IMG/VR virus record: IMGVR_UViG_3300027712_000951
Coordinates: 1 to 40,623 of that record
Length of the DNA stretch: 40,623 bases
Origin: a virus
Reading direction: 5' to 3' (one strand)
A program made the translations under genes and the position numbers. The notes beneath the pieces are model-generated. The model saw only the letters and a list, made by a program, of their open reading frames with translations, did no database searches and was not told where the DNA came from. The number at the start of each line of letters is the position of its first letter. The stretch's first letter is position 1. Positions 1,374 through 27,700 of this stretch are shown piece after piece.

Positions 1374-2355
1374 GACTGTTATTATTACAGGTGCGATGGG
1401 CTTTATCGGTAGTCATACCGCCAAGGCCTTTCGCCGTGCTGGATATCGTGTAATCGGTATTGACCGAGAAATGACTATTCCATCTGCTGCTCATTTCTTA
1501 GATGAATTGATCGTTGACGACTTTGTAAATATTACTGCAACAGTTGCCAAGATAAACAATGTAGATGCAATTATACATATTGCAGGTACAAGCCTTGTGG
1601 GTCCTAGTATTGCAGATCCTGGCGAATATTATAGAAACAATACAGCCAAGACGAATCAAATGTTAGATGATCTTGCTCTGGCAGGCTGGACTGGAACTTT
1701 GATTTTCAGCAGTAGTGCAGCCGTATATGGCAATGACTACGTGCGTCGTTGGGTAGAAACTGATCGTATAAATCCAATTAGCCCATATGGACATAGTAAG
1801 GCCATGTGTGAGCAGATCATACGAGATCATACTCATGCATATGGACATCGTAGTATTGCATTGAGGTATTTTAATGCATGTGGTTGTGATCCAGATGGAG
1901 AATTGGGCAATGTTTGGGACGATACCCATTTGGTTCCAAGGGTTGTTCAGAATATGCTCAAGGACCAAACAGTTGTGATCAACGGTGGAAACTTCAAAAC
2001 CGAGGACGGAACCTGTGTAAGAGACTATGTTCACGTATCTGATATTGCAGATGCTCACGTTCGAGCAGTGGAATTATGTAGTAAGTCGCTTGACAAAAGT
2101 GAATTTAGAGTGTATAATATTGGAACAGGGACGGGAATTAGTAATCTTGAAATAGTACTATCGCTTGAAATGGCAACTGATCAAACAGTTAAATATAGTA
2201 TTGGTCCAAGAAGATCTGGTGACCCTGATGAATTGGTAGCTGATCCTGCTAGATTTAAAGCAGACACAGGATGGGAACCAAAGCATAGTCATTTGGCAAA
2301 TATAGCATTTACTACATTTAATTGGTCTAAACAGTTTAAAGAAAGCACATCATGA
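1357..2355 (+). CDS. galE: NAD-dependent UDP-glucose 4-epimerase-like (GalE) protein
   Basis: A 332-residue extended SDR enzyme, close to the roughly 338 residues usual for GalE. It likely interconverts UDP-glucose and UDP-galactose, or the N-acetyl forms. The NAD-binding motif TGAMGFIGSH is at residues 11-20. The catalytic Ser-Tyr-Lys set is intact: FSSSAAVYG (Ser120) and SPYGHSK (Tyr144, Lys148). RYFNACG, GTCVRDYVHVSDIADAH and the YNIGTGTG segment are also characteristic of GalE. The start is a GTG inside the upstream gene; there is no clear Shine-Dalgarno sequence, so translation is probably coupled. The TGA stop overlaps the ATG of the protease gene (ATGA). It forms a surface-sugar module with the upstream glycosyltransferase. 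A related 4-epimerase with another substrate is possible. Confidence 0.88.
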   Translation: MSQSIKTVIITGAMGFIGSHTAKAFRRAGYRVIGIDREMTIPSAAHFLDELIVDDFVNITATVAKINNVDAIIHIAGTSLVGPSIADPGEYYRNNTAKTNQMLDDLALAGWTGTLIFSSSAAVYGNDYVRRWVETDRINPISPYGHSKAMCEQIIRDHTHAYGHRSIALRYFNACGCDPDGELGNVWDDTHLVPRVVQNMLKDQTVVINGGNFKTEDGTCVRDYVHVSDIADAHVRAVELCSKSLDKSEFRVYNIGTGTGISNLEIVLSLEMATDQTVKYSIGPRRSGDPDELVADPARFKADTGWEPKHSHLANIAFTTFNWSKQFKESTS

Positions 2356-4343
2356 AATTTAAATTACTTGCAACCTGCTTGGCAACACTGTCATTCTGTG
2401 CTGCTGCACAAAATGTCACACCGTGGCAAACTACGGAATATTACCGTAGTCGTACCTTGGATCCAATCAAGGCCGCTAGTGCATATTCAAGAGGGTACAC
2501 CGGTGTTGGTAGCACAATTGCCATCCTGGATACTGGTATTGACTTGAATTCCGTAGAATTTAAAGATCGTATCGTGCTCACAAAAGACTTTTCTGGAAGC
2601 GCATCTGTTCAGGACACATACGGACACGGTACTCACGTAGCAGGTATTGCTGCTGCTGCCAACAACGGAGTTGGCATGGAAGGTGTAGCATTTGGTGCCA
2701 ATTTGATGATTGGCAAAACTAGTGCCGGTTCCATTGTATTTTTCAACAACTATATCACTGCATTGGATTGGGCATCTACCAATGGTGCCACAGTTGCCAA
2801 CATTTCTGCAGGTATGACAATCCCAACTACTATTAATCCTACATTGATAGCCCCTGGAATTTATACCACAACGCTAACCAACACTGGAAAATTTAGTACC
2901 ACTATTACTCCAGAGCAGATTGCTAGTGCAATGAAAAATGACATAGTATTAGTTGTTGCTGCCGGAAATGACGGAAAACCTTTTCCAACTGCTCCGGGAC
3001 AATTTGCCACTGCGGTTGATAGCACCGGTAAATTGATTCTCGGTGGCCGTATGCTTATTGCAGGTAATTGGAATTCACAAAGCAATCAACTTGGTGCAGG
3101 TAACAACGGTGCTGGCACGTTATGCATGGTTGCAGTCAAAAATGTTTGCCAGGACAAATACAAGACTTCTGATTTCTACATCATGGCACCAGGTATGGGA
3201 ATTTACTCCACTGTGCCAAAGACTGTAAACTCATCTGGTTATACCAACATGAGTGGTACGTCAATGGCTGCTCCTGCTGTGTCTGGTGGTGTTGCAATTA
3301 TCCATCAAATGTGGCCACAAATGACCGGTGCAAACATTGTCCAGTTGCTGTTGGTCACTGCTAACAAAAACTTGCCTGGATATAAGGTTGAAATTATGGG
3401 CCAAGGTCTAATGGACTTGGACAAGGCAACTCAACCAGTTGGTGCAATTGGTATTCCTACTACAGGCAAACTGACCAGCTTGAGCAATGCTGCTCCAGTA
3501 TTGATTACTGGTGGGACCGCCAGCACATCCAAACTTGCCAGCTTCATGGTTGTGGATTCATTTGAACGTGACTTTTACTCAGAAGGTAAAAATCTTACCA
3601 CAGTAAATACTTCTGCACCGTTCAATCTTGGACAGACTGCAATGAATTACACTAGCAAGAATGGATACACTCAGTTCAATAACTATTCTGGTGTTAGTCA
3701 CGCAGCGGCAGGTAATATTGAAGTTAATGCATATCACGAAGATCAACAAAATTCCGGTCTTGGCTTGATTGAAGTATCTTACAACAAGAAAACGTCTGTT
3801 GGAGATGTAAAGTTTACCGTGGGTACTGTTACAGAGAACAATGCCTGGCTGGGTAACACTGTGGCCAATAGTGCGTCAAATCTAAGCACCACGTATATCG
3901 CAGGTGTTGGTTTTGGTAAAGAGTTTAACTCTGGTACTACTGTGTCAGCTAATGTTATGCATGGTATGACCTACACCAAATCTAGTGGGGATTTAATTAA
4001 GAGTATTGATGCTGTAATGAGCTACAGCTGGAATTTAAGTTTGGAACAAAAACTCAATGATAACCATACTGTTGGTGTTATGCTGTATCAACCAGTAAGC
4101 GTGTATGATGCACAGGCTAATGTAAACATTCCAATTGGGTTAGATGCTGATTACAATGTAGTTAACACTGATCGAATTAACTTGGCTGCTACTGTGAAAG
4201 AAATGCGTACAGGCATGTATTACAAGTTTACCAACCAAGGTGCAACCAATGCATTGGCTTTTGTTGAAACACGAATGAACTACCAAGGACAAGCAGGTGT
4301 CAATGACACTGTAATTGGTGTAACACTAGCACATCGCTTCTAA
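2352..4343 (+). CDS. Secreted S8 (subtilisin-like) serine protease with C-terminal barrel-like domain
   Basis: This 663-residue protein has three visible parts. (1) Residues 1-19 (MKFKLLATCLATLSFCAAA) are a classic Sec signal peptide with an Ala-rich cleavage site. (2) Residues about 40-360 are a peptidase S8 domain with the full triad: Asp60 in AILDTGIDL, His92 in GHGTHVAGIAAA and Ser304 in SGTSMAAPAVSG, with the oxyanion Asn206 in AAGNDG. (3) Residues about 380-663 are beta-strand-rich and end VIGVTLAHRF; the terminal Phe with alternating hydrophobic residues matches the outer-membrane beta-barrel C-terminal signature, and the roughly 280-residue length suits an autotransporter barrel. The layout matches S8 autotransporters of Gram-negative bacteria. 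The ATG overlaps the galE stop by four bases, so it belongs to that operon. A palindromic terminator follows. A protease is certain; surface display is inferred. Confidence 0.88.
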   Translation: MKFKLLATCLATLSFCAAAQNVTPWQTTEYYRSRTLDPIKAASAYSRGYTGVGSTIAILDTGIDLNSVEFKDRIVLTKDFSGSASVQDTYGHGTHVAGIAAAANNGVGMEGVAFGANLMIGKTSAGSIVFFNNYITALDWASTNGATVANISAGMTIPTTINPTLIAPGIYTTTLTNTGKFSTTITPEQIASAMKNDIVLVVAAGNDGKPFPTAPGQFATAVDSTGKLILGGRMLIAGNWNSQSNQLGAGNNGAGTLCMVAVKNVCQDKYKTSDFYIMAPGMGIYSTVPKTVNSSGYTNMSGTSMAAPAVSGGVAIIHQMWPQMTGANIVQLLLVTANKNLPGYKVEIMGQGLMDLDKATQPVGAIGIPTTGKLTSLSNAAPVLITGGTASTSKLASFMVVDSFERDFYSEGKNLTTVNTSAPFNLGQTAMNYTSKNGYTQFNNYSGVSHAAAGNIEVNAYHEDQQNSGLGLIEVSYNKKTSVGDVKFTVGTVTENNAWLGNTVANSASNLSTTYIAGVGFGKEFNSGTTVSANVMHGMTYTKSSGDLIKSIDAVMSYSWNLSLEQKLNDNHTVGVMLYQPVSVYDAQANVNIPIGLDADYNVVNTDRINLAATVKEMRTGMYYKFTNQGATNALAFVETRMNYQGQAGVNDTVIGVTLAHRF

Positions 4344-4394: not shown

Positions 4395-4423
4395 TTGACA
4401 AACTGTCAGGCGGCATTTATAAT
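4395..4423 (+). promoter_or_regulatory. Perfect-consensus sigma70 promoter
   Basis: TTGACA at 4395-4400 and TATAAT at 4418-4423 are separated by exactly 17 bases, so both hexamers match the bacterial sigma70 consensus fully. The predicted start, near 4430, leaves a leader of about ten bases before the ATG at 4441, containing AAGG as the only ribosome-binding sequence. The -35 box lies inside a small inverted repeat, TGACA-AAC-TGTCA. Its -35 region shares CTTGACAAACTG with the promoter at 11758. This implies early transcription by host RNA polymerase. Confidence 0.85.
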
Positions 4424-4440: not shown

Positions 4441-4905
4441 ATGAAATCACTTTCTAAATTATTTCTAAATACACTGGACCGTCTTGGTCGCAAACGTGTA
4501 GTAATGGACAGACAAAATGACGAACCCTATCTTGAACGATACTATCTTTTTCTCAAAGATAGAAAAAATTTCCCCTTCAATATCTTTATTCATAAGTTTC
4601 TTAAATCAGATCCCGATGATGTGCATGATCACCCATGGCCTTATGCTACGTTGATTCTTAAGGGTGGATATTGGGAATGGGTTCCAGTATTTGCTGATGG
4701 TAAGAAGGTTAGCGAAGTTGCAAGATGGAGAGGTCCTGGACACTTCCGTATTAGTAAACCAACCAGTTATCATCGCATTGAATTACAAGAAGGTGTTACT
4801 CCCTGGACATTGTTCATGCCCGGTCCACAAAAGAGAGAGTGGGGATTTCTTGTCAAGAATCAGTGGATACATAATGACGAGTATTTAAAGAAAAGAGCAC
4901 AATGA
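4441..4905 (+). CDS. Cupin-fold protein, function unknown
   Basis: This 154-residue soluble protein has the features of a single-domain cupin. A metal-binding His pair lies in VHDHPWPYATLILKGGYWEW (His62, His64), matching cupin motif 1. A second-motif His is in KPTSYHRIEL (His111). No signal peptide or membrane segment is visible. Cupins include sugar isomerases and epimerases, dioxygenases and ligand-binding proteins, so the reaction cannot be assigned. The gene has its own strong promoter immediately upstream. It ends at 4905, directly abutting the stop codon of the opposite-strand homing endonuclease. Metal-binding cupin architecture is well supported; the substrate is unknown. Confidence 0.72.
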   Translation: MKSLSKLFLNTLDRLGRKRVVMDRQNDEPYLERYYLFLKDRKNFPFNIFIHKFLKSDPDDVHDHPWPYATLILKGGYWEWVPVFADGKKVSEVARWRGPGHFRISKPTSYHRIELQEGVTPWTLFMPGPQKREWGFLVKNQWIHNDEYLKKRAQ

Positions 4906-5782: not shown

Positions 5783-6058
5783 ATGAACAAAGACACTGAG
5801 ATTTTATTAATTTTATCCGAAGAATGCGCGGAAGTAATTCAAGCGGTTAGCAAAGTAAGTCGATTTGGCATTGACAATGTTAAACCTGGTAAACCAAAAA
5901 CCAATCGTGAACACCTAGAAGAAGAAATTGGTGATCTGTTGGCAATGGTTGACATCATGGTAGAGTTTAGTGTAATATCGTTAGATAACTTAGAAGTTGC
6001 AAAACGTGCTAAGATTGAAAAATTAAAGAAATGGTCAAACATATATGAGCAAGATTAA
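5783..6058 (+). CDS. mazG: MazG-like nucleotide pyrophosphohydrolase
   Basis: A 91-residue single-domain all-alpha NTP-PPase. The signature metal-binding pattern is present: EECAE at residues 13-17 and E48-I-G-D51 (EEx2E ... Ex2D). These enzymes hydrolyse NTPs or dNTPs to the monophosphate and pyrophosphate. In aquatic phages the short MazG is common and is thought to tune nucleotide or alarmone pools during infection, although the substrate varies. The gene has a strong ribosome-binding site and its own promoter candidate. Its last 14 bases overlap the start of queE, so the two are translationally linked. The length fits single-domain phage MazG rather than the two-domain bacterial enzyme. 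dUTPase-like or HisE-like relatives are less likely. Confidence 0.85.
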   Translation: MNKDTEILLILSEECAEVIQAVSKVSRFGIDNVKPGKPKTNREHLEEEIGDLLAMVDIMVEFSVISLDNLEVAKRAKIEKLKKWSNIYEQD

Positions 6059-6917
6059 AATCGCAGAATTGTTTTATTCGTTGCAAGGAGAGGGAAAATA
6101 TATGGGAGCACCTAGCGTGTTCCTTAGAACGTTCGGCTGCAACTTTAAATGTGGGGGCTTCGGTATGCCTCGTGGCGAACTCAGCAAGGAAGCAAATGAA
6201 GTAGCAGTTATGAATGCAATGCATCCATTTACCAAATACGAAGAACTGCCATTGGTCAGTACAGGTTGCGATAGTTATGCCAGCTGGCATCGAGACTTTA
6301 AAAATCTCAGCCCTATGATTACTAGTGATGCTATTGTAGAACGCATTATGGAAATTCTCCCGCAAGATCATTGGCGAGATGAACATCTTGTTATTACAGG
6401 AGGCGAGCCCTTGCTAGGTTGGCAACGTGCTTTTCCGGACCTGTTGGATCATCCCAAGATGGCAGCACTGAAAGAGATTACATTTGAAACAAATGGTACT
6501 CAAAAATTAGATCCAGAGTTTAAAACATATCTACGCAAGTGGGGTACTGGGCTCGATGAACACGGTTTTGGTTACCCACGTGAAGTTACATTTAGTGTTA
6601 GTGCCAAACTTCCTTGCTCAGGTGAAAAGTGGGATGATGCTATCAAACCAGAAATCGTTTGTGAGTATGAACAAGTTGGCACAACATATTTGAAGTTTGT
6701 CATTGCTACAGAGCAAGACTTTGCCGACGCAGAATGTGCCATTGCGGCATATCGTCGAGCAGGATTTAAGGGTCATGTTTATCTAATGCCAGTTGGCGGT
6801 GTAGAAAGTGTCTACGCAATGAACAATAAGAATGTGGCCGTGCTGGCAATGAAACATGGATTGAGATATAGTGATCGACTTCAAATACCTCTTTTTCGCA
6901 ACGCATGGGGCACTTAA
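6045..6917 (+). CDS. queE: 7-carboxy-7-deazaguanine synthase (QueE), radical SAM enzyme with unusual cysteine spacing
   Basis: A 290-residue radical SAM protein. QueE converts 6-carboxy-tetrahydropterin to 7-carboxy-7-deazaguanine, a step to preQ0 used for tRNA queuosine and, in several phages, for 7-deazaguanine DNA modification. Family marks: IAELFYSLQGEGKYMGAPSVFLR (residues 6-28), the Fe-S segment FGCNFKC (Cys32, Cys36), and the SAM-binding HLVITGGEPLLGW and ITFETNGTQ segments. The standard third Cys of CX3CX2C is absent: GGFGMPRG follows Cys36, and the segment STGCDSYASW, which resembles the usual C-D-T/S-x-Y, appears only at Cys75. The apparent motif is therefore C-x3-C-x38-C. It overlaps mazG by 14 bases and precedes metK, which makes its cofactor. 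queC, queD and folE are not in this window. Confidence 0.87.
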   Translation: MSKIKIAELFYSLQGEGKYMGAPSVFLRTFGCNFKCGGFGMPRGELSKEANEVAVMNAMHPFTKYEELPLVSTGCDSYASWHRDFKNLSPMITSDAIVERIMEILPQDHWRDEHLVITGGEPLLGWQRAFPDLLDHPKMAALKEITFETNGTQKLDPEFKTYLRKWGTGLDEHGFGYPREVTFSVSAKLPCSGEKWDDAIKPEIVCEYEQVGTTYLKFVIATEQDFADAECAIAAYRRAGFKGHVYLMPVGGVESVYAMNNKNVAVLAMKHGLRYSDRLQIPLFRNAWGT

Positions 6918-6947
6918 TGCCAACAAAAAATTTTAAAAAGGATTAAA

Positions 6948-8045
6948 ATGTACCTATTTACAAGTGAGAGTGTGTCCGAGGGACACCCAGACAAAGTAGC
7001 AGACGCCATTAGTGATGCAGTGTTAGATCTAGTTATGCGTGATGAAAATACTGCATTGCGATGTGCCTGCGAAACCTTGGTCACAACCAACCGTGTTGTA
7101 GTAGCAGGAGAATATAAAGGATTTCTTCATACTGAAGAAGTTGATTCTTCTATCCGTAAAGTTATTAAAAATATTGGATATGAACAAGCAGGGTTTGATT
7201 GGCGCACAGTAGAGATTACAAATTTATTGCACGGACAAAGTGCCGACATTGCACTTGGTACTGATAACTTTGGTGCTGGAGATCAAGGTTTGATGTTTGG
7301 TTACGCCTGTAATGAAACTGATAATTACATGCCCAGTGCTATCTACTGGAGTCACAAGATTGTAGAAATGCTGGCAGCTCGCCGCAAACTATCAGAACTA
7401 GATTGGCTAGGTCCAGATGCCAAGAGTCAAGTCACATTTGAATATGACGATAATAATGTTCCTAAAAGAATCTCTAAGGTAGTGTGTTCTACACAGCATC
7501 AAGAATATATTACAACTGCTGCCCTTAGAGTCAATGTTGAAAATCTTATTCGTGATATTCTACCTAAAGAGTTAGTAGATGATCGGACAGAATTTCACAT
7601 CAACCCAACTGGCCGTTTTGTTATTGGTGGTCCAGATGGTGATACCGGTCTTACTGGACGCAAGATTATTGTTGATACATACGGAGGCTATAGCCCACAT
7701 GGTGGTGGCGCATTCTCGGGTAAGGATCCCACAAAGGTAGATCGTAGTGCTGCCTACATGATGCGTTATCTGGCCAAAAATATTGTAGCAAGTGGACAGG
7801 CACCTTGGGCAACTGTACAAATCAGTTACGCCATTGGCCTTGCACAACCAATGAGTTTTTATGTGGAGACCGACAGTACTTCTCAAAGCCGTATGTTGAC
7901 AAAACAAATTCAAGAAATGGTTGATTTAACACCAAAGGGTATTATTGAACGATTTGAATTGTTCCGCCCAATCTATAGTAGCACAACAAATTATGGACAC
8001 TTTGGTAAAGATTACTTGCCATGGGAAGTTGTAAATTTATTCTAA
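6948..8045 (+). CDS. metK: S-adenosylmethionine synthetase (MetK)
   Basis: A 365-residue methionine adenosyltransferase making SAM from methionine and ATP, slightly shorter than the roughly 384-residue bacterial enzyme. Family signatures are intact: SEGHPDK (His13, Asp15, Lys16) at the N-terminus, GAGDQGLMFGYA at 109-120, TGRFVIGGPDGDTGLTGRKI at about 221-240, and GGGAFSGKDPTKVDRSAAY at 252-270. No truncation or missing catalytic block is visible, so it is likely active. A strong AAAAAGGATTAAA ribosome-binding region precedes the ATG. It follows queE, a SAM-consuming radical enzyme, by 30 bases. The simplest reading is SAM supply for QueE, for methyltransferases, or for replacing host SAM. 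metK in a phage is uncommon, and the pairing is notable. Confidence 0.95.
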   Translation: MYLFTSESVSEGHPDKVADAISDAVLDLVMRDENTALRCACETLVTTNRVVVAGEYKGFLHTEEVDSSIRKVIKNIGYEQAGFDWRTVEITNLLHGQSADIALGTDNFGAGDQGLMFGYACNETDNYMPSAIYWSHKIVEMLAARRKLSELDWLGPDAKSQVTFEYDDNNVPKRISKVVCSTQHQEYITTAALRVNVENLIRDILPKELVDDRTEFHINPTGRFVIGGPDGDTGLTGRKIIVDTYGGYSPHGGGAFSGKDPTKVDRSAAYMMRYLAKNIVASGQAPWATVQISYAIGLAQPMSFYVETDSTSQSRMLTKQIQEMVDLTPKGIIERFELFRPIYSSTTNYGHFGKDYLPWEVVNLF

Positions 8046-8054
8046 GGAAATATA

Positions 8055-8993
8055 ATGCGTATTGTTTTTAACCTAACTAGTAGAAATGTAAATTCTGGAG
8101 GATCCCAAATTCTATTAGAACAAATGAGATTTTTAAAAGAAGCTGGTTTTGAGGTTGGCGTATATTATTTCACAGACTTGGAATATAACATTTGGAATAA
8201 TAATTTAGGTGGTTATTATCAACCACTTACCCTAGATCAATTAGGGCATAATGACCTAGTTGTTATATCTGAGGAGTTTGCATTTATTGCAGGTGATTTA
8301 TTATATCCTAGAAACATAAAATATATTATGTTCAATCAGGGAATATCTGCTAGCTTTGCTTCAGAAATTAATTACAATGATCATAAATTTGTCTACCACC
8401 ATGCATTAGCAGTAATGGTAAATTCTGAGCATTCTAGTGTAGGGGTAGAAAAGATATTTGATATTCCAAAGACTAAAATAGTGCGATATAGAATTGGTAT
8501 TAATCAACAAGTTTATTATCCAGAACAAAAAGAAAAATCTATATGTTTCTTAACTTTTAAAAATTTTAAATTTGCAAGTTTTATGAATGCCTATATTCGA
8601 GGTAGATATCCAGACTGGAATATAATAGGGATTGATAACTTGACAAGAACCGAAACCGCAGCAATTTTTAGAAAGTCCAAATTATTGATGACATTTGGTG
8701 GTCCAGAAGGATTTGGACTACCACCTTTAGAATCAGCATTGTGTGGATGTAAAGTTATTGGATTTGATGGATACGGTGGCAAGGAATATTTTAAGGAACC
8801 TATTTTTACCACAGTAAATTTACTTGATCATTTAGATTTTATTGATAAAATTGATACAGTTATTGCCAACGTCGATCATTGGACCTTAGACGACGTTGAG
8901 TATCTTGATTACTTAAGAAGTTTTTACAATTTAGAAAAATCTAAAGCAGGGTTGTTATCTTTCTACACACAAATCAAGAATAACTATTTCTAG
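8055..8993 (+). CDS. Glycosyltransferase family 4-like protein
   Basis: A 312-residue GT-B protein. The N-terminus MRIVFNLTSRNVNSGGSQILL is the usual first strand plus glycine-rich loop. Near the C-terminus, LMTFGGPEGFGLPPLESALCGCKVIGFDGYGG (about residues 214-245) carries the E-x7-E motif that contacts the nucleotide-sugar donor. It differs in sequence from the glycosyltransferase at 204. A clear ribosome-binding site, AAGGAAATATA, lies between the metK stop and this ATG. The role is probably glycan modification of the host surface, phage structural proteins or DNA. Donor and acceptor cannot be told from sequence. Confidence 0.82.
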   Translation: MRIVFNLTSRNVNSGGSQILLEQMRFLKEAGFEVGVYYFTDLEYNIWNNNLGGYYQPLTLDQLGHNDLVVISEEFAFIAGDLLYPRNIKYIMFNQGISASFASEINYNDHKFVYHHALAVMVNSEHSSVGVEKIFDIPKTKIVRYRIGINQQVYYPEQKEKSICFLTFKNFKFASFMNAYIRGRYPDWNIIGIDNLTRTETAAIFRKSKLLMTFGGPEGFGLPPLESALCGCKVIGFDGYGGKEYFKEPIFTTVNLLDHLDFIDKIDTVIANVDHWTLDDVEYLDYLRSFYNLEKSKAGLLSFYTQIKNNYF

Positions 8994-9001
8994 AATATAT
9001 T

Positions 9002-9361
9002 ATGAAAAACTTTATTAAAAAACTACTTGATGCATTTGATTTTGCAAAAAAAAATCCAGTGACATTAACTGCAAAAGAAATTGCCACAGAAAAGAAAGAA
9101 CCCTGGGTAGCGGTGTTAGACACTCATGTCAACAAAGATAATATCCGGAATGGGTTTTTTGAACTTGACTGGAATGAATACTTTGTGCTACAATTGCGTA
9201 GTGCCGGTTATTCAGGCGAAACAGATGAACTAGTTGTTGATCAATGGTTTTCTGAATTGTGTAGAAATCTAGGCAACGAAGCAGGAGTAGACATGGACCG
9301 TAGAGGTAGTGGCTATGTTAAGAAATCTCTTAGAGATGACGGAAAAACAGAAGTTTATTAA
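9002..9361 (+). CDS. Conserved-looking phage protein of unknown function
   Basis: A 119-residue soluble protein with a basic, helix-forming start (MKNFIKKLLDAFDFAKKN), followed by PWVAVLDTHVNKDNIRNGFFELDWNEYFVLQLRSAGYSGETDELVVDQWFSELCRN. The aromatic and acidic centre looks like a folded domain. I recall similar small proteins in T4-like cyanophages but cannot assign a function. It sits between a glycosyltransferase and the 5'-3' exonuclease, with only eight bases before it. It has no signal peptide or membrane segment. Confidence 0.65.
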   Translation: MKNFIKKLLDAFDFAKKNPVTLTAKEIATEKKEPWVAVLDTHVNKDNIRNGFFELDWNEYFVLQLRSAGYSGETDELVVDQWFSELCRNLGNEAGVDMDRRGSGYVKKSLRDDGKTEVY

Positions 9362-9375
9362 CAGTTGATTAAATT

Positions 9376-10368
9376 ATGAATAAAACATACATTCTTGTAG
9401 ACACAGCAAATACATTCTTTCGTGCCAGGCATGTTATTCGCGGAGATCTTAATGACAAGATTGGTATGAGCCTAGCCACTGTACTAGGCAGTGTTCGTAA
9501 AGCCTGGCGCGAATTTAAAGGCGACCATGTTATCTTCTTTTTAGAAGGTCGTAGCTGGCGTAAGGACTACTACGCACCTTATAAGCGTCAGCGTACTGAG
9601 GCTCGTGCAGCACAGAGTCCACGTGAACAAGAAGAAGATAGAGTATTTTGGGAAACGTTTGATCAGTTCAAAGAGTTTATTACCGACAAGACCAATTGCA
9701 CAGTATTACAAAATCCTCAATTAGAAGCTGACGATCTTATTGCAGGTTGGATTAAAAATCATCCCGATGATACCCATGTTATTATTTCAACTGATGGAGA
9801 CTTTGCACAATTGATTGCACCTAACGTCAGACAATACAATGGTGTGATGCAAATTACAACCACACACGAAGGATACTTTGATGAAAAGGGTAAACGTATC
9901 AAGGATAAAAAGACCGGCGAAGTAAAGCCTGCTCCGGATCCAGAATGGCTATTATTTGAAAAGTGTATGCGTGGCGATACTAGCGATAATATCTTTAGTG
10001 CATATCCAGGTGTGCGTGAAAAAAGTACAAAGAATAAAGTAGGCCTGCGTGAAGCATTTGCCGACCGTGAAAGTCGCGGATATAATTGGAACAATCTCAT
10101 GCTTCAGCGTTGGACTGATCACGAGGGCGTTGAGCATCGTGTACTTGATGATTATAATCGTAATGTCAACTTATGCGACTTGACTGCGCAGCCTGAAAAT
10201 ATTAAAATTGTTATTAAAGAAACGATTGATACTGCAACTACTGCTGAAAAGCATATTCCCCAAGTTGGGTTTAGATTACTTAAATTCTGTGCTGCATATG
10301 ATCTAGTTAAGATCAGCGAACAAGTAGAAACTTATGCAGAGCCACTTAACGCAAGGTACATAGCATGA
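9376..10368 (+). CDS. rnh: 5'-3' exonuclease / RNase H of the FEN-PIN family
   Basis: A 330-residue homologue of T4 RNase H (about 305 residues), which removes RNA primers from lagging-strand fragments and has flap and 5'-3' exonuclease activity. Metal-binding acidic motifs of the FEN superfamily are in order: ILVDTANTFFRA (Asp9), LEADDLIAGW (Glu117, Asp119, Asp120), STDGDFAQL (Asp140, Asp142) and RGDTSDNI (Asp201, Asp204). The helical arch region has the basic DYYAPYKRQRTEAR segment. No Shine-Dalgarno sequence is obvious. The stop overlaps the next gene's ATG by four bases. Its presence marks this strand as carrying replication and metabolism genes. Confidence 0.88.
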   Translation: MNKTYILVDTANTFFRARHVIRGDLNDKIGMSLATVLGSVRKAWREFKGDHVIFFLEGRSWRKDYYAPYKRQRTEARAAQSPREQEEDRVFWETFDQFKEFITDKTNCTVLQNPQLEADDLIAGWIKNHPDDTHVIISTDGDFAQLIAPNVRQYNGVMQITTTHEGYFDEKGKRIKDKKTGEVKPAPDPEWLLFEKCMRGDTSDNIFSAYPGVREKSTKNKVGLREAFADRESRGYNWNNLMLQRWTDHEGVEHRVLDDYNRNVNLCDLTAQPENIKIVIKETIDTATTAEKHIPQVGFRLLKFCAAYDLVKISEQVETYAEPLNARYIA

Positions 10369-11400: not shown

Positions 11401-11761
11401 AATTACAAAATACGTAGCAACCCAATCGGGCTTAGATATAACGGAAAAAAATCTTAGAAAATTAGTGTCGCTCTGGTGGCAGAACCCCCGTAAAAAAAAC
11501 AAAGGTGGACTACGGTTAACTGATGAGGGATTTGCTAGAATTTCTTCATATTTCAAATTTCATAAAGTTAAATTTGAAAGTCCAATTGAGTATACAAGCC
11601 AATTGGTTATCCAATTGGACAACTTTATTGACTGCCCGTGGTATGTGACCAACCGATTTATCTTTGTTTTTAGTGATAAGATGGCTGTACAATTGGTGTT
11701 GTTTTCAGGCGACATTGCAAAATTTAGCCGGGCAAAGGCAAAAAGTGCAGATTCTGCTTGA
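11384..11761 (+). CDS. Unknown phage protein
   Basis: A 125-residue protein that begins inside the preceding gene. The middle segment LWWQNPRKKNKGGLRLTDEGFARISSYFKFHKVKFE looks like a basic nucleic-acid-contacting or helix-turn element. The C-terminal half is beta-rich (NRFIFVFSDKMAVQLVLFSGD). I recall similar proteins in aquatic T4-like phages without known function. The -35 hexamer of the next promoter lies in its last codons, so the stop is within a transcription boundary. Confidence 0.62.
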   Translation: MNHKIEITKYVATQSGLDITEKNLRKLVSLWWQNPRKKNKGGLRLTDEGFARISSYFKFHKVKFESPIEYTSQLVIQLDNFIDCPWYVTNRFIFVFSDKMAVQLVLFSGDIAKFSRAKAKSADSA

Positions 11762-11786
11762 CAAACTGAGTGATTTGCCGTATAAT
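11758..11786 (+). promoter_or_regulatory. Perfect-consensus sigma70 promoter for the MoxR gene
   Basis: TTGACA (11758-11763), a 17-base spacer and TATAAT (11781-11786) match the sigma70 consensus at every position. The stretch CTTGACAAACTG is identical to that of the promoter at 4395. The predicted start is near 11793, exactly where a hairpin begins. Confidence 0.85.
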
Positions 11787-11792
11787 TAATAC

Positions 11793-11815
11793 ATACTGTA
11801 GCAGACATGCAGTAT
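11793..11815 (+). promoter_or_regulatory. Stem-loop at the predicted 5' end of the MoxR mRNA
   Basis: ATACTGTA (11793-11800) pairs with TGCAGTAT (11808-11815) with one G-T wobble around a seven-base loop. Its left arm begins at about the expected transcription start, so the mRNA would start with a hairpin. This is a known way of protecting 5' ends, but that role here is inferred. About 30 unpaired bases separate it from the ATG at 11846. Confidence 0.4.
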
Positions 11816-11845
11816 TCAATTTAACTCAAACACTGAAAGTATTGT

Positions 11846-12928
11846 ATGGCAGAACAAATTTCCGCAAATCGCACAGTTACTCCTAACGAAGCAAAACGAA
11901 GCATTCGTAAATGCGTAAAAATTAAGCGTCCCGTATTCATGTGGGGCCCTCCCGGTATTGGCAAATCTGATATCATCAAGCAAATTGGTAATGAACAAAA
12001 GCGTGAAGTCGTTGATGTGCGACTGAGCCTTTGGGAACCTACTGACATTAAAGGTATTCCTTATTACAACTCCACTTCAAACACCATGACTTGGGCACCT
12101 CCTGCAGAATTGCCTACTGATCCTAATTCTACTGCTATCCTGTTTTTGGATGAGTTGAACTCTGCTGCTCCTGCTACTCAAGCGGCTGCATTCCAGCTGG
12201 TGTTGAATCGTCGTGTTGGTACTTACATTCTCCCAGAAGGTGTTAGTATCGTTGCTGCTGGCAATCGAGAAGGTGATAAAGGTGTCACTTATCGTATGCC
12301 TGCTCCGTTGGCAAACCGGTTTGTTCATATTGAACTGAAATCAGACTTTGAAGATTGGCAAGAATGGGCTGTTACTAACAAGGTTCACGAACAGGTTGTT
12401 GGTTATGTTGGCTTTGCCAAACAAGATCTGTATGATTTTGATCCAAAGTCTTCTAGCAAGGCATTTGCTACACCACGTAGCTGGTCATTTGTGAGCGAAT
12501 TGCTGCAAGATGACGACTTGGATGAACGAACCCTGACTGACTTGGTTGCAGGTGCTATTGGTGAAGGTCTTGCTGTTAAGTTCATGGCACATCGACGTGT
12601 GGCCAAACAGATGCCTAACCCAACTGATATCTTGTCCGGTAAGGTGCTGGCTTGCAACATCAAAGAAATATCTGCAATGTATTCTTTGTCAATTAGCCTG
12701 TGCTACGAATTGCAAGATGCTAGCATCAAGAAAGTTAAAAATTGGGACGAAATGGCAGATAACTTCTTCAAGTTCCTAATGGATAACTTCCCAACCGAGC
12801 TTACTGTTATGGCTGCAAGAGTTGCGTTGACTAGTTACGATCTCCCGTTTGATTCTAGCAAGCTCAAGCACTTTGATACTTTCCATAAGAAGTTTGGTAA
12901 GTTTATTATCCAGGCTATGCAAGGTTAA
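11846..12928 (+). CDS. MoxR-type AAA+ ATPase
   Basis: A 360-residue AAA+ protein, probably a chaperone that remodels or inserts cofactors into a partner, with the downstream VWA protein the obvious candidate. Motifs: Walker A GPPGIGKS (34-41), Walker B ILFLDE (98-103), sensor 1 AAGN (137-140) and an arginine-finger segment PLANRF (Arg158). MoxR family members typically sit next to genes for VWA-domain proteins, as here. The gene is bracketed by a consensus promoter and a strong terminator, so it can be expressed independently of its neighbours. The start has only a weak GAAAG upstream. The C-terminal third (about 240-360) is helical and lacks recognisable motifs. The ATPase call is firm; the physiological role is unknown. 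Confidence 0.88.
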   Translation: MAEQISANRTVTPNEAKRSIRKCVKIKRPVFMWGPPGIGKSDIIKQIGNEQKREVVDVRLSLWEPTDIKGIPYYNSTSNTMTWAPPAELPTDPNSTAILFLDELNSAAPATQAAAFQLVLNRRVGTYILPEGVSIVAAGNREGDKGVTYRMPAPLANRFVHIELKSDFEDWQEWAVTNKVHEQVVGYVGFAKQDLYDFDPKSSSKAFATPRSWSFVSELLQDDDLDERTLTDLVAGAIGEGLAVKFMAHRRVAKQMPNPTDILSGKVLACNIKEISAMYSLSISLCYELQDASIKKVKNWDEMADNFFKFLMDNFPTELTVMAARVALTSYDLPFDSSKLKHFDTFHKKFGKFIIQAMQG

Positions 12929-12951
12929 AAAAGGCCCGAAAGGGCCTTTTT
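12928..12951 (+). terminator. Strong rho-independent terminator after the MoxR gene
   Basis: GGCCC-GAAA-GGGCC (12933-12946) forms a five-pair GC stem closed by a GAAA (GNRA) tetraloop. It is extended by A5/T5 pairing and followed by a run of five T. It overlaps the end of the MoxR stop codon and separates this gene from the promoter at 12955. Confidence 0.9.
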
Positions 12952-12954
12952 CAC

Positions 12955-12983
12955 TTGCTCTTTTGATAAATTTAATGTATAAT
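12955..12983 (+). promoter_or_regulatory. Sigma70-like promoter for the metallopeptidase/VWA gene
   Basis: A perfect -10 box, TATAAT (12978-12983), lies 17 bases from TTGCTC (12955-12960), which matches only three -35 positions. It follows the terminator immediately and precedes a good ribosome-binding site, AAAAGGATAGG, before the ATG at 13011. The weak -35 box may indicate activator dependence. Confidence 0.6.
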
Positions 12984-13010
12984 ATATACTTACACTGAAA
13001 AGGATAGGCA

Positions 13011-14288
13011 ATGTCAACAGTAATGAAAACTGAAAAAGTTAAAAAAGCAGCATCTACAAAAGTCTACTCAAATGATGAAAAGAACAAGATTATAGAAAAA
13101 CTTATTACAGCTCGTATTGGGTTGCTTCTTCGTCAACCATTCTTTGGTAATCTGGCTACCCGAATGAAATTGATTGATGCTAGCGACTGGTGTGCTACAT
13201 TGGCCACAGATGGTCGTAATTTCTATTACAACAACGATTTTGTTAATAGACTCACTCCCAAAGAAGCAGAGTTTGGATTTGCACACGAAGTGCTACATAA
13301 TGTATTTGATCACATGGGTCGTCGTGATTTCCGCGATCCAGTGCTGTCAAATATTGCAGCTGACTATGCTGTTAATCAAATCCTCAAAGATGAACGAATT
13401 GGTGCGGTGCCTAGCTGGATCAAGATTTATCAAGATGACAAATATCGTGGCAAGAGCTACGAAGAAATCTATGCCGAACTTTACGAAAAAGCAGACAAGA
13501 TTGATATCAGCTCGCTTGGTGAATTACTAGACGAACATTTGGATGACGATGATGGCGGCGGTGATGGCGACAGTGATGAAGACGGTGAAGAAATAGATGG
13601 CAGCGGAAAAGGCAAGGCCAAACGTCCTAAACTGACCGAAGAAGAAAAGAAACAGATCCGCGACGAGATCAAAGAAGCAATGGTTGCGGCTGCACAGGCA
13701 GCAGGTGCTGGCAAAGTTCCTGCAGGTGTCAAGCGTTTGATCAGCGACTTTACTGAGCCTAAAATGGATTGGCGTCAGATCCTGCGTATGAATATACAAA
13801 GTATTCTAAAAAGCAATTTCAGCTTCAGCCGGCCTAATCGTAAATCACAACAGTGTGGTGCTATTTTGCCGGGAATGATGAATGAAGAAACTATCGATGT
13901 ATCAGTTGCCATTGATATGAGCGGTAGTATCTCTGACAAAATGGCCAAGGACTTCCTAAGCGAAGTCAAGGGCATTATGGACGAATACCAAGACTTTAAA
14001 TTGGATCTTTGGTGCTTTGATACCCGAGTATATAACTATGCCAAGTTCACGGGCGACTCCGCTGACGAAATCATAAGCTACCAAGTCAAGGGCGGCGGAG
14101 GCACTGATTTTGATGCTAACTATGAATTCATGAAGAACGAAGATATTGTTCCAAAGAAATTCATTATGTTTACTGACGGATATCCTTGCGGCAGTTGGGG
14201 TGATGAAGATTACTGCGATGCATTGTTTGTGATTCACGGCAATGATTCCATAATTGCACCCTTTGGTCAGACTGCCTATTATAAATAA
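13011..14288 (+). CDS. Metallopeptidase-like plus VWA-domain protein (MoxR partner)
   Basis: A 425-residue two-domain protein. Residues about 25-160 resemble the putative metallopeptidase domain found with VWA-like domains, with an intact HEVLHNVFDH (His92, Glu93, His96, His101), a zincin-type HExxHx4H site. Residues about 172-215 are a very acidic Asp/Gly/Glu linker. Residues about 295-425 are a VWA fold with MIDAS residues DMSGS (302-306), Thr365 in GGGGTDFD and Asp389 in FTDG. Both the peptidase and metal-binding sites therefore appear competent. It lies directly downstream of the MoxR ATPase but has its own promoter. The likely function is a MoxR-operated protein-remodelling or proteolytic complex acting in the cytoplasm (no signal peptide). 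The target is unknown. Confidence 0.85.
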   Translation: MSTVMKTEKVKKAASTKVYSNDEKNKIIEKLITARIGLLLRQPFFGNLATRMKLIDASDWCATLATDGRNFYYNNDFVNRLTPKEAEFGFAHEVLHNVFDHMGRRDFRDPVLSNIAADYAVNQILKDERIGAVPSWIKIYQDDKYRGKSYEEIYAELYEKADKIDISSLGELLDEHLDDDDGGGDGDSDEDGEEIDGSGKGKAKRPKLTEEEKKQIRDEIKEAMVAAAQAAGAGKVPAGVKRLISDFTEPKMDWRQILRMNIQSILKSNFSFSRPNRKSQQCGAILPGMMNEETIDVSVAIDMSGSISDKMAKDFLSEVKGIMDEYQDFKLDLWCFDTRVYNYAKFTGDSADEIISYQVKGGGGTDFDANYEFMKNEDIVPKKFIMFTDGYPCGSWGDEDYCDALFVIHGNDSIIAPFGQTAYYK

Positions 14289-20804: not shown

Positions 20805-21716
20805 TTAAAAGGTACTTGCTAACATTCTTCTCCATGTATTTGTATCCACACATATATAAACATAGGTAGCATCAAATGCAAGTTGTCCAATAGTGCCCGG
20901 ACTAGAAGTTCTAGATGGAATAGTTGATTGGAATAATTTTCCTATATCACCCTGAAATCCACGTGGACCAGCACTTCCCGCTGACCCAGTATATCCCGGG
21001 AATCCACGTGGGCCAGCACTTCCTGCATAACCTACAGATCCAAAATATCCAATAGTACCATTATTGCCAATTGATCCAGTATATCCAATTGCCCCAATTG
21101 ATCCAGTATATCCTTTACTACCAGTATAACCAGCGCTGCCAGTAAATCCAATTGCTGCATATTCTCCAGAGCTTCCAGTATATCCTACACTACCAGTATA
21201 TCCTTTACTACCAGTATAACCAGCGCTGCCAGTAAATCCAATTGCTGCATATTCTCCAGAGCTTCCAGTATATCCTACACTACCAGTATATCCTACACTA
21301 CCAGTATATCCTACGCTACCAGTGTATCCGCGAGCAGCATAGGCTCCGGTTGCTCCTTGATATCCCACAGATCCCTGAGCACCTTGGGTGCCTTGGAATC
21401 CTTGATTGCCCTGAGATCCCCGAGCTCCTTGGAATCCTTGATATCCCACAGATCCCTGAGCACCTTGGGTGCCTTGGAATCCTTGATTGCCCTGAGATCC
21501 TCGAGCTCCTTGAAAACCTTGATATCCTACAGATCCTTGCGCACCTTGATATCCTTGAGCGCCCTGCGCACCTTGATATCCTCGAGGTAGCAATGGTATC
21601 ATTTGGTCAGCTAGAGAAGAATATTTGAATCGGTTAGTCAGATTATTGTCAACAACAATAAAATAAGTAGCAGTTGTTGCTGTGTTTAAAATTGGTAATT
21701 GAGTAATATTTGGCAT
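20805..21716 (-). CDS. Collagen-like tail-fibre protein
   Basis: A 303-residue protein. The ATG at 21716 is chosen because AAGGA precedes it and it follows the upstream stop by one base; a longer frame from 21773 would overlap the giant gene by 56 bases and add an unlikely leader. Residues 1-45 form an attachment domain (MPNITQLPILNTATTATYFIVVD ... LPRG). Residues about 46-260 are Gly-X-Y collagen-type repeats: GYQGFQGARGSQG and GYTGSVGYTGSAG types. The C-terminal knob (GTIGQLAFDATYVYICVDTNTWRRML) is typical of fibre ends. It likely forms a trimeric triple-helical fibre. Confidence 0.85.
   Translation of the reverse strand: MPNITQLPILNTATTATYFIVVDNNLTNRFKYSSLADQMIPLLPRGYQGAQGAQGYQGAQGSVGYQGFQGARGSQGNQGFQGTQGAQGSVGYQGFQGARGSQGNQGFQGTQGAQGSVGYQGATGAYAARGYTGSVGYTGSVGYTGSVGYTGSSGEYAAIGFTGSAGYTGSKGYTGSVGYTGSSGEYAAIGFTGSAGYTGSKGYTGSIGAIGYTGSIGNNGTIGYFGSVGYAGSAGPRGFPGYTGSAGSAGPRGFQGDIGKLFQSTIPSRTSSPGTIGQLAFDATYVYICVDTNTWRRMLASTF
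21103..21282 (-). repeat. Two exact 90-bp tandem repeats in the collagen-like gene
   Basis: Bases 21103-21192 and 21193-21282 appear identical throughout. They encode a 30-residue block with GYTGS, GEYAAIGFTGS and KGYTGS segments. The exact identity suggests recent duplication and points to variable fibre length among relatives. Confidence 0.9.
21359..21520 (-). repeat. Two near-identical 81-bp tandem repeats in the collagen-like gene
   Basis: Copies begin at 21359 and 21440, a period of 81 bases (27 residues, nine Gly-X-Y triplets). They differ at only a few positions near the 3' end of the unit. Partial copies continue toward 21590. Confidence 0.88.
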
Positions 21717-21717
21717 T

Positions 21718-24700
21718 TTAAAATCCTTGTAATGGTTGTCCGGTACTATCTGTAAATGAAGTACCTGAGACATCAGTTAATAATAAATTACCACCGTAAT
21801 AGTAATTATCTGGTAATTCTGCAGGTTTTTGCTGTAAAAATCTAGCAGGCAATGTAGTACTATCCATTAGTGATTGTACTCCACCATCATTCCATACTTT
21901 AGATTTTTTAACTTCTTTCTTAATAATAACTAGTTTAACGTTATCTTGTATACCTTGTGCAATATTTAATGTCAGCGCCTGGGTAGCAATATCAATAGTA
22001 AATTCAGGTGGAGAATATGTAAGTCCTCGATATACATAGCCATTTATAGCATCTGCTTCTATGGATTTGGTATAGACCCACACTTGATTTGTAGAGGTAA
22101 CTACATACGCTGTCCCAATGGTAGTAGTATAAGGCAATAATTTTACAGTAGCGATATTTCCAACTATATTACATTCTAGGCTATCGTAAGATATAGTAGT
22201 ATCTTGTTGGTATATTCCAGTTTTTCTTAACAGGCGGCCACCATAATATACCAATACTTGATCAACAGCTGGTATTGTTATATCAGATATTAATTTATTT
22301 TCCACGAAGTAATCAACCGGTGCAGCAACTGCTGCAATACTTAAAGTTATTCCATTGTTAGTAATCTGATGCTGGGTTCCGGTATTTAAAATATTTGGAG
22401 TTTTATTAATTATATAAGTGTTGGTAGTTGATTTTGTTATATGAGTTTGACGATAGATATTTTCTTTAAAAGGTATAGTCTGTTCTGGACTCTGATCAAT
22501 TACTCGCGTATTGATATCTGAATAAAAACTAGGTGCAGTGCCCAATGTACTTCTGCGTAATTGGCTTAGTATATTCCCTGTTACCTTAAAGAATTCAATA
22601 CGTTCGCCATCAATGATTACAACTCCTGGAATTTTCTTAGAAATTAGCGGAGGAGTGAGTGCCCTAGCATCAGCAACTTGTATTTCTGTATCTGTAAAAT
22701 GTAAAGGAGTAGTTAGATATGTAGTATCTTGTTTAGATAGACGTTTAAAATGTGTCCTATCAAATATATCATTGAATATTCTGTATCCAAGAATAGTAGA
22801 TGCTAACTTTTCACTGCTAATACTTGTTATCACAATAACATCGTCCGATGTATGATGATACTGATCACTAAATTCTACCGTTACTTGATCATCAAGTATA
22901 TTGTAATCTATCTTTCCAGTCAATGGGATCCTATTAACAGTTACCCACACATAGTTGTCATTTAATACAGGTCGACTAATTTTATATCTCTTACTTGGAT
23001 TTCCATCAAATTTTTCAGTTCTCATCATCATACCATCATGATCAGTATATGTAATGACTTTATATGTATCCCCGGCGTTTGGATCTATAATTATTAATGG
23101 CGTTGCTGAAGAACTATTGATGTCGTAATCAAATCCTATGCTTCCATTTGTTTCCGGATTTATTGGGCGGCCGACAATTGCAATTGCATTTTTATTTGAT
23201 AACATATTATCAACAATTGTAACCGTGCCTTGTTCCGAATTAACTGTATAATCATAATCTGATACCAACTGATATCCATTGATATATACTCTAACTTGGC
23301 TAGAATTAAATGTGCCTGCTGGGTGAGATTTATGAGTATCTATTGCAAATGTCTGAATAGCAGGCCCAACTGTGTCATAATAAGTTATAATTGGTGGAAT
23401 TAGTCGAGTACGAATTCCATTGGATGTGACTTCAACAATAGATTGTGCTACCCATGGTTCTTTCTTACCTGGAAATTTTGATAATGTATAATATTGATTG
23501 CTACTATCTATTGAAATAATTTCTTCCGTAATTTCATTAAAATACTTATAATCATTATTGAAGAACCAAGCCTGTACAGTGTTGGTTCCAGGTAAAAGAT
23601 TGTATACATTCACAGCTGCTCTATGATTTTTACTATTGGCATAGGTTAGCATATAACCATAATCAGTAGAAGTTGTTACTGGAGAAATAGTAATACCATT
23701 TACAGTAACGTATGCACTCTTGATACTACGGTAATCTGATAAACTTTCTACTTGAGCAAAATTTGTACCATTGACTGTGATTATTGCAAAATCAACAACT
23801 CCAGCTTCTGTATCTGGGCGGCCACCACCTATACTTAAAATAGTATATCCCAATTTACCTGTTATTGGTTGAGGCGGAATAATAATTTCATTGGTTTCCC
23901 AATTTATTGCAAATTGATTAACTGCTGTAAAATTAGTAGTGGTACTATAATTAAACTGCAAATTGTTAAAAGTTACAACAATATTGTTAGAACTTGGCGG
24001 GACAATACTTAACTTACCAGTAGATGTAGTTCCGGCAATTATATTAGTATACCCGGCAAATACTATAGGAGCACCTTGAGAATTTTTAGTATAAACATTG
24101 ATGCCCACACTTTCTGTCACATAGCCAGGTACTAATTCTTCCGGAGCGTAACTTGATGCAGCAGATAAGAATATATCACCATCTATAGTAACGTCTTCGG
24201 GATTAATTCCTAATGCATTTACTCGTGTAGATGTATTCCAAGTACCGCCTTCAATAACGCTGTCAATTGCATTGTTGTCAGCATTATAGTTCCAAAATTC
24301 AATACTGTATCCAGGATACACTGTACTAGATAGAGTAGAACTAAATGTCACATTACGAGTTTCTGTATTAATTTCAGTAATAACAACATCCGATGAGGTG
24401 CTAAATTTATTAATAGTTGATCCAGTGATGTTAGCATACTGCCCTACAGTTAATCCCGTAGTAGTTGTTAACATGACAGTAGAAATACCAGCAGTGGCAG
24501 TATTGGCAATTTTAGCAGTTGTATAATAACTAACTGCATCAGTCCAGGCAAAACTACCAGTTGGGATATATCCTACATCTAATGAATTATTATATCCAAG
24601 TGGCAATCCATTAATTACAGTGTTGGGATATTCAATACCAGTCATTAATTGTGCAAGATCTTTTCCTGGCATTCCTGATGTTGGAGAATAATAACTTAAT

Positions 24701-27700
24701 ATCCGTTCAGTGGCATTTAACAACTCTGTGCTTTTTATATAAGTAACTTCTAATACTTGATCCACTGCTGGATCAAAATTTAAGAAGTATATTCTGTTAA
24801 ATTTCTTATTGTAACCGTTGTACATCCCGGTATAATACTCTATGGTATAATCTGAACGCAATACTGCACTCTTATCAAGGAAAACTTGAATCTTAAATTT
24901 ATCAGGTTCAGCTAACCAATTTAATACAAACTTATTGTCTGCACCATTGCAAATAAATGTATCAGTCACTGACCTATCACCAATTTGGTCATTGCGGGTA
25001 GTTCTATCAAACTTCATACCAATCTTATTGGTACGAACTTTTCCGTTAAATAACTGTGCATAGGCAGTGGCTACAGTAGTTGCACCGCCACCAGTAATAG
25101 TGACAGTTGGTGCAGTTTTATATCCAGAGCCAGCTTTGGTTACTTCAATAGAAACTACTTTTCCTGAATTAATATATGCAATAGCAGTAGCGCCTGCTCC
25201 TAAATCTCCCTGTGCAGCAGTTATAGTCACAGCAGGAATTGAAGTATAGCCGGCGCCAGCTTGCCCAACTGAGATGCTACCAATTATGGATGAATTATTA
25301 TCTGCCCAAGATTTCCAAGGATGTCTATCTAATAATGCACCATTTGTTTCAACAGTATCAAATATTCCAGTAGATTTATTATAGACCGATGGCAAATCAA
25401 AATCAGTAGTATAAGATCTACTTGATTCCAATGTTGAATAATCCGTAGTAAAAGTTCTAATGCTGGTATGATAAGGTTTAACCTCATTAACATAGTTCTC
25501 AAAATATTCACTATTTTGTAATTTGTAAATAGCTCGTTGATCCAAATTTCCTGCTAGGTTCTTTACATTAATAAAAGAAGTCTTGAACGCCCAATCTAAT
25601 AATTTTTGTTCTGATAAGGCATACTTTACTGCTTTGAAGAAAAATAGATTCCAGTTGATTTTTAATTCATTTATAAACAAATCTTTCTTTAGAGCAGAAA
25701 GAATATATTGAAGTTCAAGATCTGGAGTTTGATCAAATAAAGTTTGATCGTAACTGTTAAGATAATCAAATCCATAATCATTGGCAGGGAAATTCCAGAT
25801 TGAATCTAAAATTTGTATTGTGCCGCGCTCACTATAAACAATATCGTATTGATTGCCAAAAGTTCCTGTAATACCATTAGCTGCTCTTTCTAATACAATA
25901 TATCTACCATCGCCACCGTTTTTAACTTTTACATATTGTCCAGTAGTTAATTCCAATGTATTAAGTTGATAAACATCATCAATTGTAGCAGCATAATCAA
26001 CATATTGATTATATGTACTGCTGCTCCAATCTTGATACTTCCAATACATTGTTGTATTAAATTTTTGTGTACGATATCTCATCCAAGATTTATTAACAGT
26101 ATCATAGACAAATATAGTCCACTTATTGTTATAAAGATTATCAGCTAATACAATAACAGTATAAGGTCTAACTTGTAGTTCAGGAGATTGATTATCGGGA
26201 AAATTGTCTCCAGCATCATCAATCGTTGCAGAAATAATTCTACCTTGCTCATCTATTTTGGTAGAAATTTTAGCGGTAGAAACCACATCGCTAACAACTG
26301 CAACGGTAGGAGCTATCTTATATCCAAATCCTGGGTTATCAATACTAACGCTGTGAATTTTTCCATTCTGTACTTTGCAAGATAGTGCCGGTAAAACAAA
26401 CTGTCGAGCATCAATAATTGCAAGCCCTTCGTTATCTTCTACAATTTGATCATAGGCGTGACTATATTGATCAGGAATAAGTTCCTGCTTGTTTAAGTTA
26501 GCAAAATTATAATTACCAGTAATTTGATTTTTAATCAACACACCGTTGGTAAATTCTACAAGAGTTCGTAACGCTTCTAATCTATTCTTGAATAGAGTTT
26601 GTTGCGGTCTAATTCCAATGCCGTATCGTGTTCTTGAAGTTAATGATACATCTGGAACAAGATTGCCAAAACTATCGTGACCAATTAAACTGTCAATTAG
26701 TTTTTTCTCAAGCAAGGTATTAGGTCTGCTTTCTGCGGATCCTTCCTGCATCAATAACCATTCAGTATGCTTAGGAATAACATTATTAATTTCATCAGTA
26801 GCAATGTTAATATGTAGTCTATCAGCTACCAACATTGATTTAATATTAGATAAAAGAATTGCATCTTTAGATATTACAGATATATATTTTAATCCGTAGC
26901 TAGTAGGATTTGCAATTATAGAAGCCACTTGGTAGCTGCTAATTCTTCTATTTTTAACAGAAGGTACTGTTACTTTATTTTTTACCCAATAGTAATAATA
27001 ATTGGTAAATGCACCTGTTATAGAACTATAAACTTGTTTAACAGATACTACAGTGTCGTTACCAAATTTTGGTTGACCACTAATGCCTTCAGTCAGCCCA
27101 GCGGCAGTATCAGCCCTAGAGCTCCATTCGCTAGGTAAGTATTCTGATCCTACCCATTCATAGACGTCAATAGTTGCACCCGGGAATAATTGTCCCCAAT
27201 TGTTCTTTCTAAAAGATAATTCGCCCTGCTCATACCATTGGTATTTTACAGAACTTAGATCCCACCATAATTCACCTAAGTGATCATCCATCCAACTTGT
27301 GGATGTATCATTAACTGTAGATGCAATACCAATTGAATATACCGCAGGATCAAATGCTGTCTTATATTTTAATTCTTGTTCAGCAATACCTGCAATTTTT
27401 CCTTTTAATGGATCAATAACATCTAGATACTCTACAATTTCTTCATTGAAAGAATCTATCAACATTACTTTTTGTACAGTATCAACAGCTACTACACTAT
27501 CTTGTTGACGTAATGTGGTAAAACTGCTAGTGGTATTTGTTGTAAATTTATAGAATCCACTGGTTATTGCTGAATTTGCAATTGCAGGTGCACCTACAAA
27601 AATAGTATTAGAATTAATGGCTGTACTATTACCGTAGGTTGTGCCAGATACAGTCAATGGTGGAGTTAGTTCTTCAGATAATACAAATCTATCAAACTTT

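Follow-up and report, generated by a model that had tools for sequence, protein, structure and literature searches.

We analysed a 40,623-nucleotide stretch of DNA from a large freshwater phage (IMG/VR record IMGVR_UViG_3300027712_000951, positions 1 to 40,623; hereafter the window), in which two neighbouring genes encode a MoxR-type AAA+ ATPase (gene and protein A) and a metallopeptidase-VWA fusion (gene and protein V). A (11846-12928) is followed by V (13011-14288), both on the plus strand and with 82 bp between them. Relatives lie on contigs of up to 354 kb, and the window is therefore probably a piece of a jumbo phage genome. An original prediction, made from the letters of the window, had described positions 11758-14288 as a separately controlled two-gene machine; both genes lie inside that span, although 11758 is the start of the promoter of A and not of a gene.

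The ATPase and its metallopeptidase-VWA partner

A is a protein of 360 amino acids (40.4 kDa) that is, by domain and motif criteria, a MoxR-type AAA+ ATPase, for which ring formation and ATPase activity are predicted. It matches the AAA_3/AAA_5 (MoxR/dynein-type) models PF07726 with 31 bits (cut-off 27) and PF07728 with 29.5 bits (cut-off 22), and phrog_1297 (PHROG 1297) with an E value of 5e-101; among solved structures, the AAA modules of midasin match it best. Motif alignment places Walker A (GPPGIGKS, residues 34-41) at 11945-11968 and Walker B (AILFLDEL, residues 97-104) at 12134-12157. In an alignment of 72 sequences that includes 12 divergent phages, the putative arginine finger Arg158 (12317-12319) is near-invariant, as are G34 through K40-S41, D102-E103, the sensor GN140 (N140) and PR211 (R211, sensor 2). 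A phage MoxR has been assigned to the CGN subfamily in the S-CREM1 paper.

V is an acidic protein of 425 amino acids (47.9 kDa) that matches PF13203 (putative metallopeptidase; E 1e-41), PF09967 (VWA-like; E 7e-16) and phrog_1314. Its N-terminal domain (residues 18-165, 13062-13505) was predicted alone because a fold search with the whole protein returned the VWA domain only. The AlphaFold2 model of this domain (predicted local distance difference test, pLDDT, 94; predicted template modelling score 0.88) had mostly zincins among its leading structural matches (selecase, jannalysin, abylysin, SprT-type and M48), with Z scores only up to 6.7. The zinc-site motif HEVLHNVFDH (HExxHx4H, residues 92-101, 13284-13313) supplies H92, E93, H96 and H101. 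An acidic linker modelled with low confidence (approximately residues 177-211, 13539-13643, pLDDT about 30) separates the domain from the VWA domain (residues 293-425, 13887-14285), whose DxSGS/T/D MIDAS is formed by DMSGS (302-306), T365 and D389. Residues 291-425 aligned to VWA/I domains with VIA-align Z scores of up to 13.1, and the MIDAS domain of midasin was among the Foldseek matches. Of 97 distinct V sequences, 96 contain HExxHx4H and 96 contain DxSGS. The original prediction held that the pair retains its key residues, and all of the residues that it listed were located here and are near-invariant in relatives. The protease site of V is apparently intact, and proteolysis is predicted.

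In PHROG 1314 and in many RefSeq phage records V carries the label 'HNH endonuclease' (for example NC_008720 gp25, NC_071039 gp144 and NC_042013 gp263). We rejected this label: all 17 diverse members of the V family match PF13203 and PF09967, and none of the 17 matches any Pfam HNH model. A possible origin of the error is seen in Klebsiella phage Pylas (locus L134, 1504-3373), where the ATPase gene is annotated as intron-split and the intron holds a true HNH homing endonuclease.

Promoters and terminators of the two genes

Promoters and terminators are sequence predictions throughout. A strong sigma-70-type promoter, TTGACA-17-TATAAT (12/12 match), lies upstream of A on the plus strand at 11758-11786 (-35 at 11758-11763, -10 at 11781-11786), and its -35 box overlaps the 3' end of the preceding open reading frame (ORF). 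Among relatives, 58 of 61 distinct upstream sequences match at 11 or 12 of the 12 positions. The window has three perfect sites of this type, where shuffled sequence would give 0.06, and 13 related contigs have 109, against 2 for a reversed-pattern control. Of the other perfect sites in the window, one lies at 2090-2118, upstream of a subtilase ORF, and the third at 4395-4423, just 5' of an ORF at 4441.

At the probable transcript start of A there is a 5' hairpin with an 8-bp stem, ATACTGTA-GCAGACA-TGCAGTAT (11793-11815, plus strand; minimum free energy -7.6, z -2.7). Only some two thirds of relatives show it clearly; in about one third it is weak or absent. Its stems vary with pairing kept (ATATTG/CAATAT, ATGCGTT/AACGCAT, ATACGTT/AACGTAT). 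An intrinsic terminator, AAAAAGGCCC-GAAA-GGGCCTTTTT, starts at the stop codon of A (approximately 12928-12952, plus strand) and is present in 77 of 79 relatives, again with stems that differ in sequence and keep their pairing (GGACCC/GGGTCC, GGGTCC/GGACCC, AGGCTC/GAGCCT and others). Beyond it, V has a weak promoter, TTGCTC-17-TATAAT (12955-12983, plus strand). Its -10 box is TATAAT in all 55 distinct intergenic sequences of relatives; the -35 box matches at just 3 of 6 positions in 45 of the 55 and reads TTGCTC in 31, so that the weakness itself is conserved. The four control elements recur in relatives and are therefore not due to chance, and the perfect promoter, 5' hairpin and terminator claimed for A, together with a separate promoter with a poor -35 box for V, were all borne out.

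In sequence, the promoters of A and V resemble those used by host sigma-70. The V-type -35 box (TTGCWY) is not a genome-wide class: none of 13 contigs had more than 3 such sites, and most of these were isolated single sites or the V promoter. The weak -35 box was therefore rejected as the marker of a middle-promoter class. The T4-type late promoter TATAAATA occurred less often in the window than chance would predict, which is uninformative. The suggestion of a stoichiometry-controlled or timed complex thus stands in part: the strong A promoter, the terminator and the weak V promoter point to separate control, while timing is unproven, the promoters being sigma-70-like and a V-type promoter class not having been found.

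Co-retention of the pair

When IMG/VR was scanned with V, 80 relatives emerged. In 79 of them A lies upstream of V in the same orientation; the 80th contig ends just before V. Both genes were present in 28 of 28 further contigs and in 12 of 12 divergent isolates. In a harder test on 12 phage records, most of them chosen among the weakest ATPase matches, plus two already-known controls, V was encoded in all 14. The genes need not be close, as they are approximately 45 kb apart in phiKT1024 and approximately 350 kb apart in the uncultured phage LR756504. INPHARED holds 716 records with V and 802 with A, and for each host genus the two counts nearly coincide; co-occurrence over these records was assessed by sampling. 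A and V are co-retained in every adequate locus, and the pairing looks obligate, big phages of very different kinds nearly always retaining both. Co-occurrence in phage genomes, proposed earlier as a check, was thus found, and neither conservation of one partner alone nor loss of the HExxH and MIDAS residues in most homologues was seen.

The pair occurs in phages of hosts as different as E. coli, Thermus, Synechococcus and Bacillus. Scans of genome collections for bacterial homologues returned only 4 metagenome-assembled contigs, which are possibly phage themselves, and PF13203 was matched in 2 of 14 control genomes. In Listeria phage LPJP1 (locus L128, MZ422438.1, approximately 7180-9620) both genes are present, each split into several ORFs. 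V of LPJP1 also carries an in-frame TAG; sequencing errors or stop-codon reassignment would account for the broken frames of both genes.

Wiring in divergent jumbo phages

A terminator lies within approximately 20 bases after A in all seven divergent jumbo phages compared (Phosso, PA5oct, Atu_ph07, 121Q, SCTP-2, Vibrio phage 2.275.O and phage G), and one closely follows V in six of the seven. The same stretches hold 3-12 terminators per 18-29 genes; from this local density, with terminators placed at random among genes, seven out of seven after A would have a probability of approximately 1e-5, in a post hoc test. In PA5oct, SCTP-2, 2.275.O and phage G, A and V are separated by further genes, and A therefore looks like a unit of its own in these genomes. 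An A transcript of its own in the largest phages suggests that A and V are not produced in equal quantity. Given the terminator after A in all seven, unequal dosage of A and V looks selected; separate and probably unequal expression is thus a recurrent solution of jumbo phages and not a law of the whole family.

Gene neighbourhood

The pair sits in a block of an exonuclease gene, A, V and three small genes whose order is kept in nearly all relatives. The exonuclease gene is upstream in 62 of 62 relatives, and thyA (thymidylate synthase) is downstream in 46 of 55. thyA is also found near the pair in 121Q, 2.275.O and S-TIM5, and in N4 a putative thymidylate synthase, gp30, is encoded a few genes beyond gp24/gp25.

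Relation to known systems

The pair is already known, since Iyer et al. 2021 (PMC7824862), in their passages on group 2.2 jumbo phages, described a MoxR/metallopeptidase-vWA chaperone-cochaperone pair (ASV44729.1/ASV44728.2). The two families are common to both accounts, and the partner has the identical domain fusion of an N-terminal metallopeptidase and a vWA domain; separate transcription units, dosage asymmetry and N4-like counterparts are not discussed in those passages. The new finding is that in all seven divergent jumbo phages A is directly followed by a terminator. Our limited literature search returned no report that links the jumbo-phage pair to gp24/gp25 of N4 or describes its wiring, and no functional test of the pair.

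N4 gp24/gp25 are homologous to A and V and are adjacent with A first, at approximately 25-30% identity. They are core genes of N4-like phages with no function assigned, and in N4 a phage RNA polymerase transcribes them as middle genes. Lytic phages as far apart as N4 and the largest jumbo phages carry the pair, with both genes in every isolate checked, and through the link to gp24/gp25 the question of its function enters a classic, genetically tractable E. coli phage.

Among cellular systems, RavA-ViaA of E. coli and NorQ-NorD of Paracoccus likewise combine a MoxR ATPase with a VWA partner. RavA-ViaA is encoded in a bacterial operon, and NorQ-NorD is reported to remodel nitric oxide reductase. 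To our knowledge, ViaA has no zincin domain and NorD no metallopeptidase domain, unlike V. Midasin (Mdn1/Rea1), whose AAA modules best match A and whose MIDAS domain matches V, is also a MoxR-clade/MIDAS machine, but a single giant protein that works on pre-ribosomes. A viral MoxR-VWA pair, p618/p892 of Acidianus two-tailed virus, is cited by Iyer et al. 2021, in the passages on such pairs, as implicated in tail development; it belongs to an archaeal virus and lacks the peptidase domain.

A probable dosage-controlled machine

We consider it rather likely that A and V form a dosage-controlled MoxR-VWA machine for remodelling or processing, of which each would be one half, driven by ATP. By analogy with NorQ-NorD and RavA-ViaA, a ring of A would dock on the MIDAS face of the VWA domain of V, and V would present a client for A to push or twist through ATP hydrolysis. 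The zincin domain, with its zinc site and catalytic Glu intact, could then clip or process this client. A would be expressed from the strong host-type promoter, its transcript would end at the terminator, and V would be expressed from the conserved weak promoter; with this arrangement, we infer, the motor subunits exceed the client-recognising subunit. The conserved unequal wiring predicts an excess of A over V, and for RavA and ViaA approximately 350 and 90 copies are reported (PMC3893208), an imbalance in the same direction.

As to the client, our best guess, and a tentative one, is a protein of the phage itself that requires maturation. A role in virion assembly with proteolytic processing was put forward by Iyer et al. 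2021 (PMC7824862), as a proposal and not an experiment. A was detected by mass spectrometry in phAPEC6 virions (6 peptides, stated mass 49.52 kDa, with which the computed mass of 49.5 kDa for A of 121Q agrees), and in PA5oct A is flagged by electrospray ionization tandem mass spectrometry and V is not. V was not reported in the virion preparations of phAPEC6 or PA5oct, and A was in both; co-purification of an abundant A ring would also explain this signal. A bolder and rather unlikely version of the proposal is a widely kept chaperone-protease under dosage control, with the protease carried by the limiting VWA adaptor and not by the ATPase ring and with the ATPase excess as part of the mechanism. 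Lytic phages with unrelated hosts would make it ahead of virion assembly, and its target would be one that has to be dealt with in all big phages, however different their morphology. Service to the giant N4-type virion RNA polymerase was considered and rejected, as just two of 18 records, N4 and LUZ7, contain phrog_2206.

Several observations weigh against a dosage-controlled processing machine that acts in virion assembly. The binding of A to V and the ATPase and protease activities of this pair are predictions. In V of Atu_ph07 (locus L085, 7998-9287) the motif reads HQILHLCLDH, in which the catalytic Glu is replaced and the zinc ligands are retained, and catalysis is therefore not always kept. 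The wiring also varies: A and V overlap in S-TIM5, are on opposite strands in the rV5-like phage EdH4, are 8 bp apart with no terminator in locus L061, and have no terminator between them in N4 or LUZ7. The statistics on terminators after A in the seven jumbo phages are post hoc. That gp24/gp25 are middle and not late genes fits poorly with a role purely in virion assembly, their homologues are not among the listed virion proteins of RPP1, and the host-type promoter of A in the window argues against a purely late role.

The timing of N4 middle genes would also suit a machine made in early or mid-infection that remodels or degrades some complex of the host, such as a respiratory, ribosomal or membrane one. 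The promoter of A belongs to a phage-wide class of strong host-type promoters, and bacterial MoxR-VWA pairs work on host enzyme complexes; with hosts as diverse as those listed above, however, the host target would have to be universal, and we regard a host-directed role as unlikely. About equally doubtful is the possibility that V is not an active protease and that its zincin fold binds metal or a client, the pair being a chaperone only. The HQILH of Atu_ph07, with all of its zinc ligands, gives a natural clue to the need for proteolysis, and the similarity of V to any single known peptidase structure is just middling, but the catalytic Glu is present in all except one of the 97 distinct V sequences.

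The neighbouring genes of nucleotide and DNA metabolism bring to mind an activating role, with a cofactor or metal inserted into an enzyme of the phage's nucleotide metabolism, on the model of NorQD and nitric oxide reductase. Proximity is weak evidence, however, A and V are themselves unlinked in some phages, and we know of no MoxR-VWA cofactor pair with a zincin domain; such a role seems improbable. Counter-defence, in which the pair would dismantle a host anti-phage complex, had been raised in the original prediction and has fared worst, to the point of being very improbable. Against the PADLOC models V had no match and A only trace P-loop matches (E 0.002-0.007), none of them meaningful, and for an accessory anti-defence gene a patchy pattern would be expected, whereas the pair is core in N4-like phages and present in every adequate relative.

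Other features of the window

A subtilase (Peptidase_S8), unusual in a phage, is encoded at 2352-4343; it seems to have a signal peptide, and its C-terminal region resembles that of an autotransporter. At 6045-8045 a QueE-like radical-SAM protein adjoins an S-adenosylmethionine synthetase-like gene (both recognised by eye, from the sequence), and the two may belong to a DNA-modification pathway. Beside the tail genes, a collagen-like protein with long GYTGS/GYQGAQG repeats is encoded at 20805-21773, and within the tail/baseplate block one ORF of 4359 amino acids occupies 21718-34797 on the minus strand.

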